Source: an uncultured bacterium (GTDB lineage Bacteria > Planctomycetota > UBA1135). From it: a stretch of DNA of 64,000 nt. The notes beneath the pieces are model-generated. The model searched no databases, had not been told where the DNA came from, and saw only the letters and a program-made list of their open reading frames with translations. Made by a program: the position numbers and the translations under genes. How positions within the stretch are numbered: position 1 is the first letter of the stretch; every line of letters starts with the position of its first letter. Below, one piece after another: positions 6,180 to 15,254 of this stretch. Location of the stretch: NCBI GenBank assembly GCA_937919925.1, contig CALFOT010000110.1, forward strand, positions 62,001 to 126,000, written 5' to 3'.

Positions 6180-6197
6180 ACTTTGGCTGCTACTTTC

Positions 6198-7493
6198 ATG
6201 GTCCGCGTTAACCAATTAAAATCTCACGACGGTGAGTCCGTCACTCTGAAAGGCTGGCTATATAGCAAGCGTGGCAAGGGCAAAATGCTGTTCCTGCTGG
6301 TGCGTGATGGGAGTGGTATTTGCCAATGCATTGTGGCCCGCGATGCGGTTTCCGAGGAGACCTTTGTGGCTGCAAACAGCCTCACCCAAGAGTCATCCTT
6401 GATTCTGCATGGCGTCGTCAAGCTTGATGAACGCGCCCCGGGAGGCGTGGAAATCGTGGCAACGGATTTACAAGTGGTGCAAATAGCCGAGCCCTATCCG
6501 ATTACGCCCAAAGAGCATGGATCCGCTTTTTTGATGGATCGCCGCCACTTGTGGTTACGCAGTAAGCGCCAAATGGCACTGTTACGTTTGCGTCACCGCA
6601 TTGCCAAATCGTTTCGTGATTTTCTCGATAACGACGGCTTCTATTGTGTGGATTCGCCCATCTTCACGCCGAATGCCTGTGAGGGAACTTCTACGTTATT
6701 TGAAACGAAGTATTTCGACGAAACTGCTTTTCTCACCCAATCCGGACAGCTGTATGCCGAAGCCAGCGCGATGGCCTTAGGCAAGGTTTATTGCTTTGGT
6801 CCAACTTTCCGCGCCGAGAAATCCAAAACACGCCGCCATCTGACCGAGTTTTGGATGTTGGAGCCGGAAATTGCTTATGCCAATTTGGAAGATGTTTGTG
6901 ACACCGCTGAGAATATGTTGCGCTACACCCTGCGCCAAGTGCTCGCCCACAACCAACAAGATTTGGCCGACTTAGAGCGTGATCCCGCTTTGCTTGAGGG
7001 TTGGGATTGTGATTTTCCGCGCCTGGCGTACGATGACGCCGCCAAGTTGCTGCTGCAATGGCAAGCCGCTGGGCTTTATGAATCCGACTTTAAACCGGGG
7101 GATGATTTAGGCGCTCCCGATGAAACCATGCTCGGAGAGCATTTTGGTTGCCCGGTGATGGTTACCCATTGGCCAGCCGCGGTGAAGGCTTTTTACATGA
7201 AGCAAGATGATTCTGGCCACGCGCTGGGGGTAGATATTATTGCACCCACGGCGGGGGAGATTGTGGGCGGCGCGGTGCGGGAAGAGAACTTGGAAGTGCT
7301 CAAGCAGCGCATCCAAGACCACGATTTACCGATGCAAGCCTTTGAGTGGTACTTGGATTTGCGCCGCTTTGGTAGCTGCCCGCATGGCGGTTTTGGAATC
7401 GGCCTGGAACGCACGGTTTCGTGGATATCTGGGGTAGAGCATGTACGCGAATGCATTCCCTTCCCACGTACCCTCAACCGCCTGACACCCTAA
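6198..7493 (+). CDS. asnS: Asparaginyl-tRNA synthetase
   Basis: Class IIb synthetase charging tRNA-Asn with asparagine. The N-terminal OB-fold anticodon domain ([20 protein letters not shown]) is followed by the catalytic core: motif 2 with [21 protein letters not shown] and motif 3 [13 protein letters not shown]. The C-terminus [12 protein letters not shown] is typical of AsnRS and argues against AspRS or LysRS. I use ATG 6198 (431 aa); a TTG at 6183 would add five residues. Its presence means the cell can form Asn-tRNA directly, which bears on the AspRS at 51052. Confidence 0.92.
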
Positions 7494-7666: not shown

Positions 7667-9118
7667 ATGAAACCGATTCTTGCAATCCTCGCGGCCGTGG
7701 CCGTGGCTGGCAGCTTGTCAGCTCAAACAACTTTCTACAGTGAAGATTTCACAACCTTCACGTGGACCCCTACCAACCTGAACGGGGCTATTAGCCAAGG
7801 TTGGATTCACGATACCGTAGGCTTGCGTGCATGGCACGAAGACGAGTCCGGCGGACACACCGCTGAAAACCGTCTTGTAGGCCCAGGTTTTGACCTCTCT
7901 GCTGTTAGCGCGGCTCACCTGCACTTGAGTGGCAACACGAATTTCGCCACTTATCTTGCCAACAACCCAGCAGGGTATGCCGATGGTATTACCAACGTAG
8001 AAATCAGCACCGATGGTGGATTGACCTGGAGCATGGTCTGGACCGATACCAGTCTCACCAGCAACACGCCGTTTACTGCAGATGTTGATATCTCCATTTT
8101 TACCGGTGCGGGTATGAGCAACGTGCAGCTCGGCTTCTACTACTACGGGACCTTCGCTCACGAAGCTTGGTTGGATAACATTTTGGTCAATGATGATCCA
8201 AGCGGTCCTCCACCTCCTCCACCTCCTCCAGTTTCTTGGACTGTGAACCTGCCTACTACTTTCGACGCAACTTCGTACACGAACGATTTTGATGTTGCAG
8301 CAGGAACCGTTCCTAGCAACATGGCCATGACCAACATCGATACTTTGACCGGCCTTGCCGATGTCGAAGCATGGGCAAACGTTGGCCAACTGGCTGCTTG
8401 CATCATTCCTAACTCTGGCCTGTTCAACCTGGAAATGGGTTTGGATCCACTTTCCACCAACTACCACAACGTGCGTAATGCCATGGTTCTTGGCTTGAAC
8501 GGTGGTGGCTCGAATGACCTCTCCCTGGATTTCATGGGCTACAACGCTGGTGAAGAAACCATGGACTTTGATGGTGTTTGGGTTTCGGCCGATGGCTTAG
8601 GTTGGTACAAAGTTTCGGGCGCATGGAATGTTGAACTTCCTTCCCTGAGCGTTTGGACTCCCGTTGTAGGCATGGATCTCACTGGCACTCCAGTAGACAC
8701 CTCCGGTGACTTCTACCTGATGTTTGGCCAAGAGGATAATTTCCCTTACAACTACCTTGACGGCATTGGCATCGATGACATTTCGGTGGCAAGCCTTACG
8801 GGTGGCGGTCTGGTTTACTCCACTGGCGGTCTGGTCGCCAATGCCAACGCAACTCTGACCATCACGGGTGCAACTCCAGGTGGAAATGTACTCATCGGTT
8901 ACTCGCTAACTGGTGCTGGCCCAACCAACACTCCGTTCGGTCCTGTAGACATGAGCAACCCAATCACCCAATTGCCAGTTTTGACTGCGAGTGGTTCCGG
9001 TGTTGCATCCATGACTACCATGGTTCCAGCGCGGGCGACTGGTTTCACCGTCTACACCCAGGCCGCAGATCTCAGCACCTCCACGCTGACGAACTCGCTC
9101 GCCGAAGTGGTGCTCTAA
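7667..9118 (+). CDS. Secreted multidomain beta protein, paralogue 1 (longest)
   Basis: Exported protein of 483 aa. The start is ATG 7667 because it gives a clean signal peptide (MKPILAILAAVAVAG, cleavage likely after SAQ); an upstream in-frame start would destroy it. Domain 1 (about 22-180) is a jelly-roll-like module with HEDESGGHT, an Asp-box-like STDGGLTW and a closing WLDNI segment, resembling MAM or choice-of-anchor-J modules. A run of nine-odd prolines links to a second beta domain (about 200-385) absent from the paralogues. A C-terminal Ig-like domain of about 100 residues is shared with copies 2 and 3. No sorting signal or catalytic motif is evident. Confidence 0.8.
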   Translation: MKPILAILAAVAVAGSLSAQTTFYSEDFTTFTWTPTNLNGAISQGWIHDTVGLRAWHEDESGGHTAENRLVGPGFDLSAVSAAHLHLSGNTNFATYLANNPAGYADGITNVEISTDGGLTWSMVWTDTSLTSNTPFTADVDISIFTGAGMSNVQLGFYYYGTFAHEAWLDNILVNDDPSGPPPPPPPPVSWTVNLPTTFDATSYTNDFDVAAGTVPSNMAMTNIDTLTGLADVEAWANVGQLAACIIPNSGLFNLEMGLDPLSTNYHNVRNAMVLGLNGGGSNDLSLDFMGYNAGEETMDFDGVWVSADGLGWYKVSGAWNVELPSLSVWTPVVGMDLTGTPVDTSGDFYLMFGQEDNFPYNYLDGIGIDDISVASLTGGGLVYSTGGLVANANATLTITGATPGGNVLIGYSLTGAGPTNTPFGPVDMSNPITQLPVLTASGSGVASMTTMVPARATGFTVYTQAADLSTSTLTNSLAEVVL

Positions 9119-9136
9119 GGATTTTTCCTTAACCAC

Positions 9137-9178
9137 AGCGGCCTTCTTCCTTCACGGGGGGGAGGCCGCTATTTTTTT
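9137..9178 (+). terminator. Rho-independent terminator after paralogue 1
   Basis: AGCGGCCT (9137-9144) pairs with AGGCCGCT (9163-9170), followed by seven T. It lies 18 nt after the stop codon. Confidence 0.85.
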
Positions 9179-9224
9179 GCATTTTCACTAGAAAAGTCCA
9201 AATTCTCCGCCAACTGCTCCAAAA

Positions 9225-9234
9225 TTGTGATATT
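9225..9234 (+). promoter_or_regulatory. TTGTGATATT motif upstream of paralogue 2
   Basis: The 10-mer TTGTGATATT, preceded by an A/T run, lies 82 nt before the ATG of paralogue 2. The same 10-mer lies 71 nt before paralogue 3 (10259-10268). It may be part of a promoter or operator. Confidence 0.35.
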
Positions 9235-9268
9235 TTCCTGTAACGAATGAATTCAACATTCGCAATCT

Positions 9269-9284
9269 GCCCGTAGTTTCGGGC
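9269..9284 (+). promoter_or_regulatory. Short hairpin in the leader of secreted paralogue 2
   Basis: GCCCG and CGGGC form a 5-bp stem with loop TAGTTT, ending 22 nt before the ATG, followed by a C/T-rich tract without a Shine-Dalgarno site. Confidence 0.35.
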
Positions 9285-9306
9285 CTTTCCTCCTTTTACC
9301 TACCCC

Positions 9307-9834
9307 ATGAAAACCATTCTCTCCCTCGCTGCTGTAATTGCCCTTGCAGGCTCGGCCTCCTCCCAGGTCCTCTCTGAGGACTTTTCAACTGGCGTACCAC
9401 CTACAGGTTGGGTGCACGTCAACAACAACGCCGGCCTATCTGTAGGTTGGATTTTTGATTCCCTCTTTAGCCGTGCATGGTCCGAAGATGAATATGGCGT
9501 TGGTACTGCAGATAACACCCTCGTGAGCCCAGTGTTCAGCTTGGCCGGTGTTTCTTCCACCACCCTCACTTTCGATTCCCAACTCGGCTGGGGTGCTTAC
9601 TTGGCAGTGAATGGCAGTGGCGATGGTCACAACACCATGGAAATCAGCTCTGACGGTGGTCTTACTTGGACCGTCGCTTGGGACGATGTTTCTCCTGGTT
9701 CTGGATCCTACCCAGGCATCAGCGTAGACCTGTCGGCCTTTGATGGTATGGCTGGCTTGCAGCTCGGCATTCACTTCTACGGCACCTACGCTCAAGAGTG
9801 GTGGGTAGATAACGTAGTGATTGATGGTGGCGGT
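9307..9834 (+). repeat. N-terminal repeat block, copy in paralogue 2
   Basis: This 528-nt block aligns without insertions or deletions to 12337-12864 in paralogue 5, with scattered substitutions. It covers signal peptide and jelly-roll domain. Confidence 0.8.
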
Positions 9835-10149
9835 GCTGGTCTTGTTTACAGCACATCCGGTCTCGTCGGTGGCGCTTCGGCTACCCTGACCGTTTCTGGT
9901 GCAACCGCTGGTGGCGGCGTTTTGATCGGCTACTCGCTGACTGGTGCTGGCCCAACCAACACTCCGTTCGGTCCTGTCGACATGAGCAACCCAATCACCC
10001 AATTGCCAGTCTTGACTGCTGATGGTGCCGGTGTTGCATCCATGACGACCATGGTCCCAGGGCGGGCAACTGGTTTCACTGTCTACACCCAAGCCGCAGA
10101 TCTCACCAGCTCCACGCTGACGAACTCGCTTGCCGAAGTAGTCCTCTAA
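9307..10149 (+). CDS. Secreted beta protein, paralogue 2
   Basis: 280-aa exported protein of unknown function: signal peptide (MKTILSLAAVIALAGSASSQ), jelly-roll-like domain (about 21-175) with a DGGLTW Asp-box-like turn and the closing QEWWVDNVVIDGG, then the C-terminal Ig-like domain (about 178-280). It is a chimera: positions 9307-9834 align without gaps to paralogue 5, while from 9836 onward it is identical to paralogue 3, including stop codon and terminator arm. The start is fixed by the signal peptide; there is no Shine-Dalgarno site. Confidence 0.8.
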   Translation: MKTILSLAAVIALAGSASSQVLSEDFSTGVPPTGWVHVNNNAGLSVGWIFDSLFSRAWSEDEYGVGTADNTLVSPVFSLAGVSSTTLTFDSQLGWGAYLAVNGSGDGHNTMEISSDGGLTWTVAWDDVSPGSGSYPGISVDLSAFDGMAGLQLGIHFYGTYAQEWWVDNVVIDGGGAGLVYSTSGLVGGASATLTVSGATAGGGVLIGYSLTGAGPTNTPFGPVDMSNPITQLPVLTADGAGVASMTTMVPGRATGFTVYTQAADLTSSTLTNSLAEVVL

Positions 10150-10182
10150 GGCTCTAGCCTTTGCTCGAACGGCCTTCTTCCT
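9836..10182 (+). repeat. 347-nt identical repeat, copy 1
   Basis: Read by eye, this block has no mismatch to 10868-11214 (constant offset 1032). It covers the C-terminal domain, the stop codon and the left arm of the terminator. Confidence 0.92.
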
Positions 10183-10209
10183 CACGGAGGGAGGCCGTTC
10201 TTTTGTTTT
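10167..10209 (+). terminator. Rho-independent terminator after paralogue 2
   Basis: GAACGGCCT (10167-10175) pairs with AGGCCGTTC (10192-10200), with a T-rich tail TTTTGTTTT. Confidence 0.85.
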
Positions 10210-10258
10210 GTGCCTGAGGTAGTCCCCATTGCACATATTTTCTTTTTCTCTCTCAAAT

Positions 10259-10268
10259 TTGTGATATT
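10259..10268 (+). promoter_or_regulatory. TTGTGATATT motif upstream of paralogue 3
   Basis: Second copy of the 10-mer also found upstream of paralogue 2, again 70-80 nt before the start codon, in otherwise different intergenic sequence. Confidence 0.35.
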
Positions 10269-10278
10269 CTTGATTTAG

Positions 10279-10296
10279 GCGGAATAAGATTCCCGC
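10279..10296 (+). promoter_or_regulatory. Short hairpin in the leader of secreted paralogue 3
   Basis: GCGGAAT (10279-10285) pairs with ATTCCCGC (10289-10296) with one bulged C, ending 33 nt before the ATG. The following leader is C/T-rich with no Shine-Dalgarno site. Confidence 0.3.
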
Positions 10297-10329
10297 ACCC
10301 CTGACCCACCCTCCATTTTTTTGCACTCC

Positions 10330-11181
10330 ATGAAAACCATTCTCTCCCTTGTTGCTGTAGCGGCTCTTGCCGGCTCAGCCTCTTCCCAAGTCCTCTCCGA
10401 AGACTTCTCCTCTGGCGTTCCACCTACAGGTTGGGTTCAGGTCGTCAACCCAGGCGGCTCTGGCGTCGGCTGGATTTTGGATTCCATCGGTGGCCGCGCC
10501 TGGCACGAAGACGAATACCTTGGCGGTCTCTTCTCGGATAACACTTTGGTTAGCCCAGCTTTCAGCTTGGCTGGCATTACCAGCTCCACGTTGACTTTCG
10601 ATACGGAGACCTACTACAGCTCTTACCTCGCCAATAACCCTTTGGGCTATGGTGATGGCATTTCCAACATGGAAATCAGCACCGATGGCGGTGCGACTTG
10701 GACTGTCGTGTGGACCGATACCGCTGTGGTGGATAATAATTACATCACCGAAGTGGTCGATATCTCTGCTTTCGACGGCGCTGCAAGCGTTCAAGTTGGA
10801 ATTCACTTCTTTGGTACCTACGCGCAAGAGTGGTGGGTGGATAACGTAGTGGTTGATGGTGGCGGTTCTGGTCTTGTTTACAGCACATCCGGTCTCGTCG
10901 GTGGCGCTTCGGCTACCCTGACCGTTTCTGGTGCAACCGCTGGTGGCGGCGTTTTGATCGGCTACTCGCTGACTGGTGCTGGCCCAACCAACACTCCGTT
11001 CGGTCCTGTCGACATGAGCAACCCAATCACCCAATTGCCAGTCTTGACTGCTGATGGTGCCGGTGTTGCATCCATGACGACCATGGTCCCAGGGCGGGCA
11101 ACTGGTTTCACTGTCTACACCCAAGCCGCAGATCTCACCAGCTCCACGCTGACGAACTCGCTTGCCGAAGTAGTCCTCTAA
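10330..11181 (+). CDS. Secreted beta protein, paralogue 3
   Basis: 283-aa exported protein with the same layout as paralogue 2: signal peptide (MKTILSLVAVAALAGSASSQ), jelly-roll-like domain with STDGGATW and QEWWVDNVVVDGG, and the C-terminal Ig-like domain. ATG 10330 is chosen over an in-frame start nine bases upstream because it leaves a standard signal peptide. The N-terminal module is distinct from paralogue 2 in its loops (for example YLANNPLGYGDG, which resembles paralogues 1 and 4), but the DNA of the C-terminal module is identical to that of paralogue 2. Confidence 0.8.
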   Translation: MKTILSLVAVAALAGSASSQVLSEDFSSGVPPTGWVQVVNPGGSGVGWILDSIGGRAWHEDEYLGGLFSDNTLVSPAFSLAGITSSTLTFDTETYYSSYLANNPLGYGDGISNMEISTDGGATWTVVWTDTAVVDNNYITEVVDISAFDGAASVQVGIHFFGTYAQEWWVDNVVVDGGGSGLVYSTSGLVGGASATLTVSGATAGGGVLIGYSLTGAGPTNTPFGPVDMSNPITQLPVLTADGAGVASMTTMVPGRATGFTVYTQAADLTSSTLTNSLAEVVL

Positions 11182-11214
11182 GGCTCTAGCCTTTGCTCGA
11201 ACGGCCTTCTTCCT
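10868..11214 (+). repeat. 347-nt identical repeat, copy 2
   Basis: Identical by eye to 9836-10182, ending inside the terminator stem. Flanking sequence diverges at once on both sides. Confidence 0.92.
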
Positions 11215-11239
11215 TATGGAAGAAGGCCGTTCTTTTTTT
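11199..11239 (+). terminator. Rho-independent terminator after paralogue 3
   Basis: A perfect 15-bp stem (11199-11213 with 11218-11232) around a TTAT loop, followed by seven T. This is the strongest terminator of the array. Confidence 0.92.
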
Positions 11240-11289
11240 AACCGGGTTTCTCCACGACCTCCGGGATTTCCTGGTAAGTTTAAAGAGTC

Positions 11290-12141
11290 ATGAAATCCCT
11301 CTGCTCCCTTGTTGCCGTCTTCGCCCTCGCCAGCGCAGCCACTGCCCAGATTCTTTCGGAAGATTTTTCCACTGGTGTGCCCCCAGTTGGCTGGATTCAT
11401 GTCAACCATAATGGTGCTGGCGTGGGTTGGATTCCAGATGGTGCTGGCCGTGCCTGGCACGAAGATGAGAGTGGACTCACTTCCGACAACCACCTAGTGA
11501 GCCCAATCTTTGATCTTACTGGTGTGTTAGGCGCCACGCTCACCTTCGATGGTGAAACCAACTGGGCCACCTATTTGGCGAATAACCCCGGCAGCGTGGG
11601 GAATGGCATTTCGAATATGGAAATCACCACCGATGGCGGCCTCAGCTGGACCATGGTTTGGACTGATACTTCCATCGCCAACGGAACTTACAGCCCTTGC
11701 GTCAACTTGAGCGCTTTCGATGGCCTGAACAACGTGCAACTTGGTATTCACTTTTTTGGCACTTATGCACAAGAGTGGTGGGTGGACAACCTGGTGATTG
11801 ACGGTGGTGGCTGTGGCGGCAGCGGTGGGCCGATGACCTACACCCTCGTGGGCCTCATCGGTGGAGGGACCGCAACGGCAACGTTGACGGGCGCCACTCC
11901 ACTTGGCCACGTGTTGATCGGCTATTCCCTTGCTGGTGCCGGACCTACGATGACTGCTTACGGCTTGGTGGATATGAGTACTCCGATTATCGCTTTGCCC
12001 ATGCAGACGGCTGATTTTTTCGGCGGCATCACTTTGACACTCGCGGTACCTGTGCGCGCTTCGGGACATGTGGTTTACACGCAAGCGGTGGATTTAAGCT
12101 CCTCTTTCTTATCTCCTTCGATTGCAGAATCCATCCTTTAG
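11290..12141 (+). CDS. Secreted beta protein, paralogue 4
   Basis: 283-aa exported protein: signal peptide (MKSLCSLVAVFALASAATAQ), jelly-roll-like domain with TTDGGLSW and QEWWVDNLVIDGG, a Cys/Gly linker (GGCGGSGG), and a C-terminal Ig-like domain diverged from that of copies 1-3. The N-terminal loops (YLANNPGSVGNG, MVWTDTS) resemble copies 1 and 3. It starts 51 nt after the preceding terminator, so any promoter must lie in or just after that terminator. No function can be assigned. Confidence 0.8.
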   Translation: MKSLCSLVAVFALASAATAQILSEDFSTGVPPVGWIHVNHNGAGVGWIPDGAGRAWHEDESGLTSDNHLVSPIFDLTGVLGATLTFDGETNWATYLANNPGSVGNGISNMEITTDGGLSWTMVWTDTSIANGTYSPCVNLSAFDGLNNVQLGIHFFGTYAQEWWVDNLVIDGGGCGGSGGPMTYTLVGLIGGGTATATLTGATPLGHVLIGYSLAGAGPTMTAYGLVDMSTPIIALPMQTADFFGGITLTLAVPVRASGHVVYTQAVDLSSSFLSPSIAESIL

Positions 12142-12160
12142 CAGCGCTAGAGCCTGCTTA

Positions 12161-12193
12161 AACCTTTCCCAAAGGGCCCTTGGGAGAGGTTTT
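12161..12193 (+). terminator. Probable terminator after paralogue 4
   Basis: AACCTTTCCCA (12161-12171) pairs with TGGGAGAGGTT (12181-12191) with one wobble, around AAGGGCCCT; a short TTTT follows. Confidence 0.7.
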
Positions 12194-12281
12194 ATTTGAT
12201 GGTATTGGACTAGCTTCATGGTGCGCAAAAAAATTCGCTACAATTCCATCTACAATGCGATTTCCTGGTATCTTTAACTGT

Positions 12282-12294
12282 CGAGGCTCCCTCG
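12282..12294 (+). promoter_or_regulatory. Short hairpin in the leader of secreted paralogue 5
   Basis: CGAGG-CTC-CCTCG forms a 5-bp stem with a 3-nt loop, 42 nt before the ATG. A CTACAAT box, a possible -10 element, lies at about 12249-12255. The leader lacks a Shine-Dalgarno site. Confidence 0.3.
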
Positions 12295-12336
12295 CACTCA
12301 CACCCTGGATTTGACTCCCACAACCAGATACTCCCC

Positions 12337-12864
12337 ATGAAACCAATTCTATTTTTGGCTGCTGCAGTAATTCTTGCAGGCTCGGCTTCTTCCCAGGTCC
12401 TCTCGGAAGACTTCTCCTCTGGCGTACCACCTACAGGTTGGGCGCACGTCAACAATAACGCCGGCCTATCGGTAGGTTGGATTTTTGATTCCGTCGGTGG
12501 CCGTGCATGGTCCGAAGATGAATCCGGCGTTGGTACTGCAGATAACACCCTCGTGAGCCCAGTGTTCAGCTTGGCCGGTGTTTCTTCCACCACCCTCACT
12601 TTCGATTCCGAACTTGGCTGGGGTGCCTACCTGGCAGTGAATGGCAGTGGCGATGGTCACAACACCATGGAAATTAGCTCTGACGGTGGTCTTACATGGA
12701 CCGTCGCTTGGGACGATGTTTCGCCTGGTTCTGGTGTGTACCCAGGCATGAGTGTTGACCTGTCTGCTTTTGATGGTATGGCCGGCTTGCAGCTTGGCAT
12801 TCACTTCTTTGGCACCTACGCTCAAGAATGGTGGGTGGATAACGTTGTGATTGATGGTGGCGGT
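12337..12864 (+). repeat. N-terminal repeat block, copy in paralogue 5
   Basis: Gap-free counterpart (offset 3030) of 9307-9834. Similarity stops at the domain boundary. Confidence 0.8.
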
Positions 12865-13182
12865 GGCAGTAGCTTCACCCTCGCTATTGCAGGTTTGGCT
12901 TACGGCGGTACTGCAACCGTCAGCATTGATGGTGCAACTCCTGGTGGTGATGTCCTGATTGGCTACTCCTTTGCCAATGCCGGCCCAACTTCTACTCCTT
13001 ACGGAATGGTGGATCTCGGTGGACGCATCTCAACCTTGCCAATGCAAGTTGCTGATCCAGCCGGTTCGATTACGATTGTGTCTGGAGTCCCTGTTCGGGT
13101 TGGTCCTCACACTCTCTATGCGCAAGCTGTAGACATCACTTCTGGGGTGTTGAGCAACTCTATCGCTGAGCCGGTACTGTAA
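12337..13182 (+). CDS. Secreted beta protein, paralogue 5
   Basis: 281-aa exported protein: signal peptide (MKPILFLAAAVILAGSASSQ), a jelly-roll-like domain almost the same as that of paralogue 2, and a C-terminal Ig-like domain (from about residue 177) of a different subtype (AGLAYGGTATVSIDGATPG). It therefore shares one half with paralogue 2 and differs in the other. Its last 23 bases overlap the end of the convergent HEAT-like gene, and its likely terminator lies inside that gene. Confidence 0.8.
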   Translation: MKPILFLAAAVILAGSASSQVLSEDFSSGVPPTGWAHVNNNAGLSVGWIFDSVGGRAWSEDESGVGTADNTLVSPVFSLAGVSSTTLTFDSELGWGAYLAVNGSGDGHNTMEISSDGGLTWTVAWDDVSPGSGVYPGMSVDLSAFDGMAGLQLGIHFFGTYAQEWWVDNVVIDGGGGSSFTLAIAGLAYGGTATVSIDGATPGGDVLIGYSFANAGPTSTPYGMVDLGGRISTLPMQVADPAGSITIVSGVPVRVGPHTLYAQAVDITSGVLSNSIAEPVL

Positions 13183-13990
13183 GAAATAAAGCCGCATGAT
13201 TGCGGAATAACTCGAAGCTGGCAGCGGCATGGTCGCTGCCAGCTTTCTTTAATTTCAGCAGCGCTTGCCAAGTTGTGGGTGCCTGGATTTGGCTGGAATC
13301 GGTTGTGCAGTTTTGAATCACTTCATGGAGTGCGGCGAGCTGCTGCACTTGTATTTGCCAAGCAGCATTCGGCTCGAAGTTGGTTTTTTCCAAGTGATGA
13401 CGCGCAAGCAAATCCTGCACCGCCAAGAATAGGATGCGTTTGGGAAGCTCATAGCGGCCCGAGCGCGGCCAGTCAGCCACAACGGTGTTTGCATCCGCTG
13501 CGGTGCCTGCAAGCAGCATGAGATAGGCTGTCGGCCAGGCTGAAAGACAATCGGCATCGAGCAGACGCGCGATGGCGGCCGCCCGCACCGGCAGAGTGCG
13601 GCGGTGGTCGCGCGCAATCCAGGCCAGGAGGGGCAGAGCTTCGTTGGCGGGAGTGGCCGGCGCGAGCAGGCAGGCCAGGCAGCGTGCCTCTTGGAAATCG
13701 AGTGCCGCACGTCTCCATAAAGCACGCCCGAGGGTGGAATCACTGGCAACGCCGGCGCTCAAAACCGCTGCAAGACGCACTTCCCAGTCGCTGCCGTTTT
13801 GAATCAACAAGCTGAGGGCAAAACGCTGAGGTTCCGTCTTGGCCACAAGGGCTAGGATTTGCTGGTCGGTCCAGGTTTGGGTGGCTGCAAGAGTTTGAAT
13901 TGCGGCGCGGTAGTGGAGATCTTCCGCGGAGCTTGGCGCCGGTGTAGGTGGCAACAAAGTGACAATTTGAATGAGGAGTGCAAGCAACAC
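13160..13990 (-). CDS. Exported alpha-helical repeat (HEAT-like) protein
   Basis: 276-aa protein of unknown function. The GTG start gives a short hydrophobic N-terminus (LLALLIQIVTLLPP) that could be a signal peptide or anchor. The rest is Ala/Leu-rich helix pairs (such as WEVRLAAVLSAGV and RTLPVRAAAIARLLDADC) in the style of HEAT repeats. It resembles in style the larger protein at 15293. The 3' end overlaps paralogue 5 by 23 bases, tail to tail, and the coding sequence carries the hairpin at 13215-13245. The start is uncertain, as GTG and TTG candidates are adjacent. Confidence 0.65.
   Translation of the reverse strand: MLLALLIQIVTLLPPTPAPSSAEDLHYRAAIQTLAATQTWTDQQILALVAKTEPQRFALSLLIQNGSDWEVRLAAVLSAGVASDSTLGRALWRRAALDFQEARCLACLLAPATPANEALPLLAWIARDHRRTLPVRAAAIARLLDADCLSAWPTAYLMLLAGTAADANTVVADWPRSGRYELPKRILFLAVQDLLARHHLEKTNFEPNAAWQIQVQQLAALHEVIQNCTTDSSQIQAPTTWQALLKLKKAGSDHAAASFELFRNHAALFLTVPAQR
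13215..13248 (+). terminator. Probable terminator of paralogue 5, inside the antisense gene
   Basis: AAGCTGGCAGCG (13215-13226) pairs perfectly with CGCTGCCAGCTT (13234-13245) around GCATGGT, followed by TCTTT. It lies 32 nt after the paralogue 5 stop, within the 3' part of the convergent HEAT-like coding sequence. Confidence 0.7.
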
Positions 13991-14042: not shown

Positions 14043-15254
14043 ATGGTGCCACCGTCATCTTGGCAAATGATCTGTACCACACTTGCACTCCTGTTGCTAC
14101 AAGGCGCTCCGCCGCCTGTGTATGCCATCGCCTCCACCACTTCTGATTCACGCTTGCCGCAAGATACGATTTGCCGTGATGAAGAACTTTTCCGTCGTGA
14201 TTACAATGATTCCTGGCCGCGGGTGATGGTTACCCAGCAAACTTGGATGAGTTTTTTAGGTGATATGGATAGCGACGGGCTCTTTGATTTCCCTGCTGGC
14301 ATTGATGCGGTTGCTTTAGCTGCGCCCGATTCCACTACCACGCCTACCTTGATGGATTTATGGTTTTCATCAGATCAAGATTTTCTCGGCTTTCAAGATG
14401 GTGATATTTTGCATCTCTCACCCATGGGTGGGGTAGAGGTCATCTACAGCGAAGCGGATCTGTACAACCTGTTGCAACCAACATCCGGCGCGATAGATAT
14501 CGATGCCTTGCATTTTATGGAGAACAAAGTTGTGCGCCTGTCGCTCGCCAATAACTTGACCGGCACGATTCTTGGAGACCTGCAAGACGGTGATATTCTG
14601 GATTGGACCCCGGAGGCCAACATCATCACCGTCGTGGCCACCGAAGCAGATGTCCAAGCGTGGGTCAATCACGCCACCGGAGGTACTGCTGCCATCGGCG
14701 ATGTGAAAGCGTTATCGATGTTACCGAACTCCATGGTCATGGCCTTCACCGTACAAGCACCCACAGCCATCGATGCGAGTGTTTTTAGCAACGAAAATGG
14801 TGGTAGCTTGATTCCTGGTTGGGAGGAGAATGATTGGTCCTTTCAACAAAGCAGTGAATTGGATGCGCTCTGTTTTGTGCCGGCAACCTTAGGCCAGCCG
14901 CTAGTGTTATCCACGGATGTGGCTTATGTGCAGCCCGGAGCACCGATTCAGCTGCGCATGCATCACGCTACCCCCGGTGCTCCTCTACAGGGCATGGTGG
15001 GCACGACTTTCAGTATCCGCTCGCAATTCCTTGGGCAAGCTGGAATCAGCGTGGTGAATCCTTACCAGGGCTTTTCTCGCACTTGGCCAGCACGGAACCA
15101 GCCGCCCCTCATTGCTGACAGTTCCGGCAGCGCCTCTTATGACGCCATGCTGCCCAATTTACCTCCGGGTGCCACTTCGCTGACCTTGTGGTGCCAGGCT
15201 GCGGATCCAACAGGCCAGGGTTGGAGCACACCCATCGTTTTGCGATTGGAGTAA
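14043..15254 (+). CDS. Secreted protein with planctomycete-type C-terminal domain
   Basis: About 403 aa, exported. In-frame ATGs at 14010, 14043 and 14067 all precede a hydrophobic stretch (MICTTLALLLLQ) that ends near PPPVYA; I choose 14043 and cannot settle it. The mature part has LGDMDSDGLFDFPAGIDA, then two ~80-residue repeats each built around LQDGDIL or FQDGDIL and an EADxxxW/L segment. The last 100 residues (HHATPGAP to the end) look like a diverged version of the Ig-like C-terminal domain of the tandem paralogues. Divergent from the HEAT-like gene. Confidence 0.7.
   Translation: MVPPSSWQMICTTLALLLLQGAPPPVYAIASTTSDSRLPQDTICRDEELFRRDYNDSWPRVMVTQQTWMSFLGDMDSDGLFDFPAGIDAVALAAPDSTTTPTLMDLWFSSDQDFLGFQDGDILHLSPMGGVEVIYSEADLYNLLQPTSGAIDIDALHFMENKVVRLSLANNLTGTILGDLQDGDILDWTPEANIITVVATEADVQAWVNHATGGTAAIGDVKALSMLPNSMVMAFTVQAPTAIDASVFSNENGGSLIPGWEENDWSFQQSSELDALCFVPATLGQPLVLSTDVAYVQPGAPIQLRMHHATPGAPLQGMVGTTFSIRSQFLGQAGISVVNPYQGFSRTWPARNQPPLIADSSGSASYDAMLPNLPPGATSLTLWCQAADPTGQGWSTPIVLRLE

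Follow-up and report, generated by a model that had tools for sequence, protein, structure and literature searches.

A tandem array of five exported genes in this uncultured planctomycete consists of two-module mosaics, which we explain jointly, at a probability of roughly 0.6, by gene conversion and by a role of the shared C-terminal module in sorting, anchoring or secretion. The array is very probably an ordinary tandem family whose mosaics were produced by gene conversion: DNA tracts were copied between paralogues by conversion or an equivalent homologous recombination. The function of the C-terminal module (hereafter C-module) as a sorting or anchoring tag is probable, judging from its position and its range of passengers.

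All five genes lie on the forward strand of the window, the whole 64,000-nt stretch analyzed here (Table 1). By inspection, each of the five copies begins with a Sec-type signal peptide of the MKxILSLxAVxALAGSASSQ type, and a terminator hairpin of 13-15 bp stands directly 3' of every copy (5/5), in a scan that found 18 terminator-like sites vs 7.6 +/- 2.5 in shuffled sequence. An earlier note had described exported paralogues, each with its own terminator, and this holds for all five. The additional middle domain and proline linker that it ascribed to copy 1 are both present, and structure models support the jelly-roll-like N-terminal and Ig-like C-terminal modules that it proposed.

Table 1. 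Positions of the array genes, their terminators, borders and shared tracts (window coordinates), and examples of the second C-terminal module (locus coordinates)
Feature	Position	Strand	Description
asnS-like gene	6183-7493	+	asparaginyl-tRNA synthetase by inspection; upstream border of array, conserved in relatives
Copy 1	7667-9118	+	signal peptide, J domain, Pro8 linker 8207-8230, second beta-rich domain, C-module 8807-9118
Terminator hairpin, copy 1	9137-9170	+	terminator scan
Copy 2	9307-10149	+	choice_anch_J domain and C-module 9838-10149
N-half exact blocks, copy 2	9496-9579 and 9602-9644	+	common to copy 5 at +3030
Exact 347-nt tract, copy 2	9836-10182	+	identical to 10868-11214 of copy 3
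Terminator hairpin, copy 2	10167-10200	+	terminator scan
Copy 3	10330-11181	+	J domain and C-module 10870-11181
Exact 347-nt tract, copy 3	10868-11214	+	identical to 9836-10182 of copy 2
Terminator hairpin, copy 3	11199-11232	+	terminator scan
Copy 4	11290-12141	+	J domain and divergent C-module 11833-12141
Terminator hairpin, copy 4	12160-12192	+	terminator scan
Copy 5	12337-13182	+	choice_anch_J domain and second divergent C-module 12874-13182
Convergent gene	13160-13990	-	downstream border of array, conserved in relatives
Terminator hairpin, copy 5	13214-13246	+	terminator scan
f8 module examples	L142:2569-2943; L119:2602-2976; L121:2602-2976; L135:2572-2946		
f8 module examples	L139:1057-1431; L116:424-798	-	

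Between the asnS-like gene and the convergent gene, the other genomes compared carry one to three array genes (G001 and G002 two each, G003 and G004 one each, G005 at least two before its contig ends, and G006, from another genus, three), and the five copies of the window are the most seen among them. G004, G006 and a NIOZ-UU23 contig share the long architecture of copy 1, whose middle domain and proline linker were therefore inherited. Named close relatives of the source genome, among them isolates Ust_12 and Arabian9_MAG_16, place it in the Planctomycetota. The C-module of copy 5 groups with that of the last copy of G001 (support 99/90). The second array copy of G001 is disrupted (L067:9440-9970), with its N-part and C-module in different frames and part of the J domain missing.

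The N-terminal domains of copies 2 and 5 match the choice-of-anchor J model NF038128 (choice_anch_J) at 38.9 and 38.1 bits, above its curated cut-off of 30 bits. The same search of copies 1, 3 and 4 gave no match at E <= 1; their N-domains are clearly homologous to those of copies 2 and 5, and the structure model of copy 1 (mean pLDDT 73) matches the jelly-rolls of reelin, Eph receptors and MAM domains. Like the NF038128 family, the J domain of the array is a jelly-roll of the MAM/reelin type; unlike in that family, the C-terminal tail behind it differs from any known anchor. It lies directly upstream of the strictly C-terminal module, for which we infer an anchoring role.

The C-module is an Ig-like domain of ~103 residues, modeled as an all-beta sandwich to its very end (pLDDT 93). 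Foldseek against the PDB placed Ig-like neocarzinostatin-type folds nearest, and we do not claim homology to them at a best E of 1.8e-3. Sequence searches of Pfam and the PDB with the module returned no usable match, and none of 46 members matched any NCBIfam model at E <= 1. Its alignments show neither a transmembrane helix nor a lipobox nor any known sorting motif, and literature searches for C-terminal sorting in planctomycetes and for the Saltatorellus clade turned up nothing specific. Judged by these sequence comparisons, it is an undescribed tail domain with neither a Pfam nor an NCBIfam model.

This module is spread across the genome and is not special to the array, a context beyond the view of the earlier note. 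A profile search found 45 C-modules at E <= 0.001 (52 matches at E <= 1) in the window's own 2.9 Mb draft genome, and every one of the family genomes searched (25/25) has 24-115. Other genomes of the order have 0-6, apart from one with 15, and outside the family 13 of 196 genomes of the phylum have 1-8 (with at most 24 scored per genome). Another C-module, at L103:4001-4318, sits on a contig labeled Gemmatimonadetes and may reflect transfer or mis-binning. Two places downstream of the array, the forward-strand gene at 14064-15254 ends in a weakly C-module-like stretch (15096-15230; E 0.047, profile search) and may, from its sequence, represent a strongly diverged carrier.

Of 103 distinct ORFs, 102 have a C-module that ends no more than 3 residues from the stop codon (11 residues in the other one), and none contains it twice (0/103). 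Among the proteins that it caps are S8, M28 and M12B-type peptidases, cytochromes, plastocyanin, C-type lectins, GSDH proteins and a metallophosphatase. By a crude rule, 42 of 64 carriers have signal-like starts vs 39 of 175 control ORFs, and several carriers that fail the rule do show a hydrophobic start, but one that lacks a basic residue. A CotH kinase and lamin-tail-domain (CotH/LTD) protein of a relative (L100:1586-4294) also ends in the module, and CotH/LTD look-alikes of similar length (~900 residues) carry it in several relatives. In one carrier of the own genome (L014/L015, C41:39335-39642) the reading frame shifts within the module, which may mean a pseudogene or an assembly error.

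We propose a sorting role because the C-module occurs singly, at the very end of many unrelated exported proteins, as C-terminal sorting modules in general do. It would direct the adhesin-like J-domain proteins, along with many enzymes, to a common outer location, at the surface or in a matrix, and a putative machinery for the module would carry out this sorting. Neither export nor anchoring machinery was found; secretins occur in CTD-rich and in CTD-poor genomes.

Two known systems resemble this arrangement. As in PEP-CTERM/EpsH (Haft 2006, PMC1569441), a lineage-restricted, many-copy and strictly C-terminal module sits on diverse signal-peptide proteins, most of them encoded as single-gene units; unlike the PEP-CTERM tail, the C-module is a folded domain of ~103 residues with no PEP motif, transmembrane helix or basic tail. 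The sequence does not support identity with PEP-CTERM or GlyGly-CTERM, since the module is all-beta to its end, matches no NCBIfam model and has no such tail. Cargo domains of type IX secretion (CTD, TIGR04183 type) are likewise Ig-like, C-terminal and single within each protein, on a varied exported cargo, and the C-module, like them, also stands behind jelly-roll adhesin domains. It departs from them in that the 46 members searched match no NCBIfam model, the T9SS CTD model included (0/46 at E <= 1), so that the sequence does not support assignment to that class. A search for SprA was silent in all 25 genomes (0/25) and equally so in the control genomes.

A second module appears to occupy the same position in a neighboring family, f8. 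We compared GSDH proteins, since the cytochrome/ethylbenzene-dehydrogenase passenger was too rare outside the genus for comparison. Among these GSDH proteins, which are family members and not proven orthologues, the C-module forms the end of 9 of 11 from family f1, whereas six from family f8 terminate in a different module of ~120 residues, with the ending (F)NxSNAlxVxFC. Of 14 f8 genomes searched, 10 carry from 61 to at least 135 copies of this f8 module and four carry 0-1; the ten f1 genomes searched also have 0-1, and the f2, f4, f5, f6 and f7 genomes searched have none; the two module types are thus complementary in genomic distribution. No NCBIfam model matched it, and its sole Pfam match was of one member at E 0.0065. 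We do not claim common ancestry of the f1 and f8 modules, for which hhalign gave a probability of 31%. Both are presumably lineage-specific sorting or anchoring modules. Somewhat short of even odds, we would extend this tentatively to the order's Planctomycetota as a whole: clade-specific folded C-terminal sorting modules (the f1 type homogenized by genome-wide conversion, another in most f8 genomes) would be carried by shared kinds of passenger, and each type would depend on its own, as yet undiscovered, system for export or anchoring.

The C-module could instead be an Ig-like domain with no more than a structural or adhesive role, for matrix binding, self-association or as a stability cap, spread by ordinary shuffling and duplication. 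Its predicted Ig-like fold, the adhesin-like jelly-rolls that partner it in the array and the lack of any sorting machinery found all agree with this, and we counted the sporadic C-modules outside the family against a sorting role. Usual adhesive Ig domains behave otherwise, however: the C-module is never internal or repeated in the 103 ORFs. A structural domain also sits poorly with passengers such as enzymes, cytochromes and plastocyanins, and with its replacement by another C-terminal module on the f8 GSDH proteins. We regard a purely structural role as possible though doubtful.

The mosaic structure of the array is clearest in copy 2. Its N half is 91% identical to that of copy 5 in amino acids and 90% in nucleotides, whereas their C halves are 54% identical in nucleotides; against copy 3, its N half is ~68% and its C-module 100% identical in nucleotides. 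At fourfold sites, copies 2 and 3 differ at 0 of 78 in the C-module vs 32 of 64 in the N half. The exact 347-nt tract that they share holds the glycine linker, the C-module, the stop codon and the left arm of the terminator, and extends to 362 nt with one mismatch; the flanks and the right arms of the terminators differ. A max-chi-square test on copy 2 placed a break at 9792-9798 (permutation p <= 1e-4), near the domain boundary, with 133 of 151 informative sites copy-5-like to its left and 148 of 149 copy-3-like to its right. Identities and break thus agree with the earlier claim that copy 2 joins an N half of the copy-5 kind to a C half of the copy-3 kind.

Module trees built separately are in strong conflict. 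The N-module data reject grouping copies 2 and 3 (AU p = 4e-6) and copies 1, 2 and 3 (AU p = 7e-7), and the C-module data reject the N-module grouping of copy 1 (AU p = 2e-11), so the congruence that would have told against the earlier note was itself rejected. By its C-module, copy 1 groups with copies 2 and 3 (83% identity in nucleotides). The different C-terminal subtype that had been assigned to copies 4 and 5 is indeed divergent from copies 1-3 but is not one subtype, as these two C-modules are only ~56% identical to each other and copy 4 is equally far from copies 1-3.

Comparison of silent sites argues for gene conversion. In three orthologous pairs, fourfold sites of the N and C parts diverge equally (p 0.6, 0.18 and 0.08), whereas between paralogues silent changes are depleted in the C-module alone (copies 2 and 3, p 3e-14; copies 1 and 3, p 1e-6; the array of the relative G002, p 5e-4). 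The array of the relative G006 has no excess of C-module identity (p 0.85 and 0.56), which indicates that conversion is episodic. For six of seven C-modules whose N-part has an orthologue, a paralogue within the same genome is closer than the module of that orthologue. The broken carrier on C41 (own genome) and its N-part orthologue on C37 (G001) bear C-modules of different subtypes, and the pattern is repeated at 83-93% identity among other genes and in G002. The C-module evolves in concert also between unlinked genes, and conversion would keep a shared C-terminal tag uniform while its passengers diverge.

The earlier note had read the array as modular shuffling to vary surface proteins. Analysis supports this only in part: exported two-module mosaics with conflicting trees stood up, while variation as their purpose, in the form proposed, did not, since the C-module appears to be homogenized. 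A system in which conversion among the array copies, and with unlinked donors, generates antigenic or surface diversity would account for the new combinations of N and C halves and for a copy number of one to five between species, and a similar rearrangement is found in Porphyromonas gingivalis, whose gingipain/HagA adhesin modules vary between strains (PMC5266723). Unlike those modules, the C-module of the array is homogenized among unlinked genes of one genome; conversion appears to homogenize a module common to ~45 proteins across the genome, so that its diversity is reduced and not raised. Neither silent cassettes nor a single expression site was seen in the array, where every copy is equipped with a start and a terminator of its own. 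We consider such a variation system unlikely.

An assembly artefact, by consensus collapse of repeats or chimeric joining, is a concern in a 138-contig metagenome-assembled draft, in which a 347-nt repeat is difficult for short reads, and collapse may have slightly inflated the identity of the tract. As the main cause we rejected it as very improbable: the two direct copies have unique flanks that leave a single linear path, their terminator right arms differ, and collapse could not cause the pattern seen at 83-93% identity in other genes and in G002. Differential selection, with C-modules kept alike by strong constraint and the tree conflict being noise, would fit the conservation of the module's protein sequence between genomes but is scarcely credible and was rejected, given the silent sites of copies 2 and 3, the orthologous pairs that lack an N/C contrast at such sites, and an identity that continues beyond the stop codon and reaches into the terminator.

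Gene conversion here provides a clean case, with a silent-site control from orthologues, of a shared C-terminal module held uniform while its passengers diverge. If the module is a tag, its carriers (~45 here and 24-115 in relatives) would list the exported inventory of a little-known lineage, and the search for its export machinery would become a direct problem of phylogenetic profiling, as it was for PEP-CTERM.
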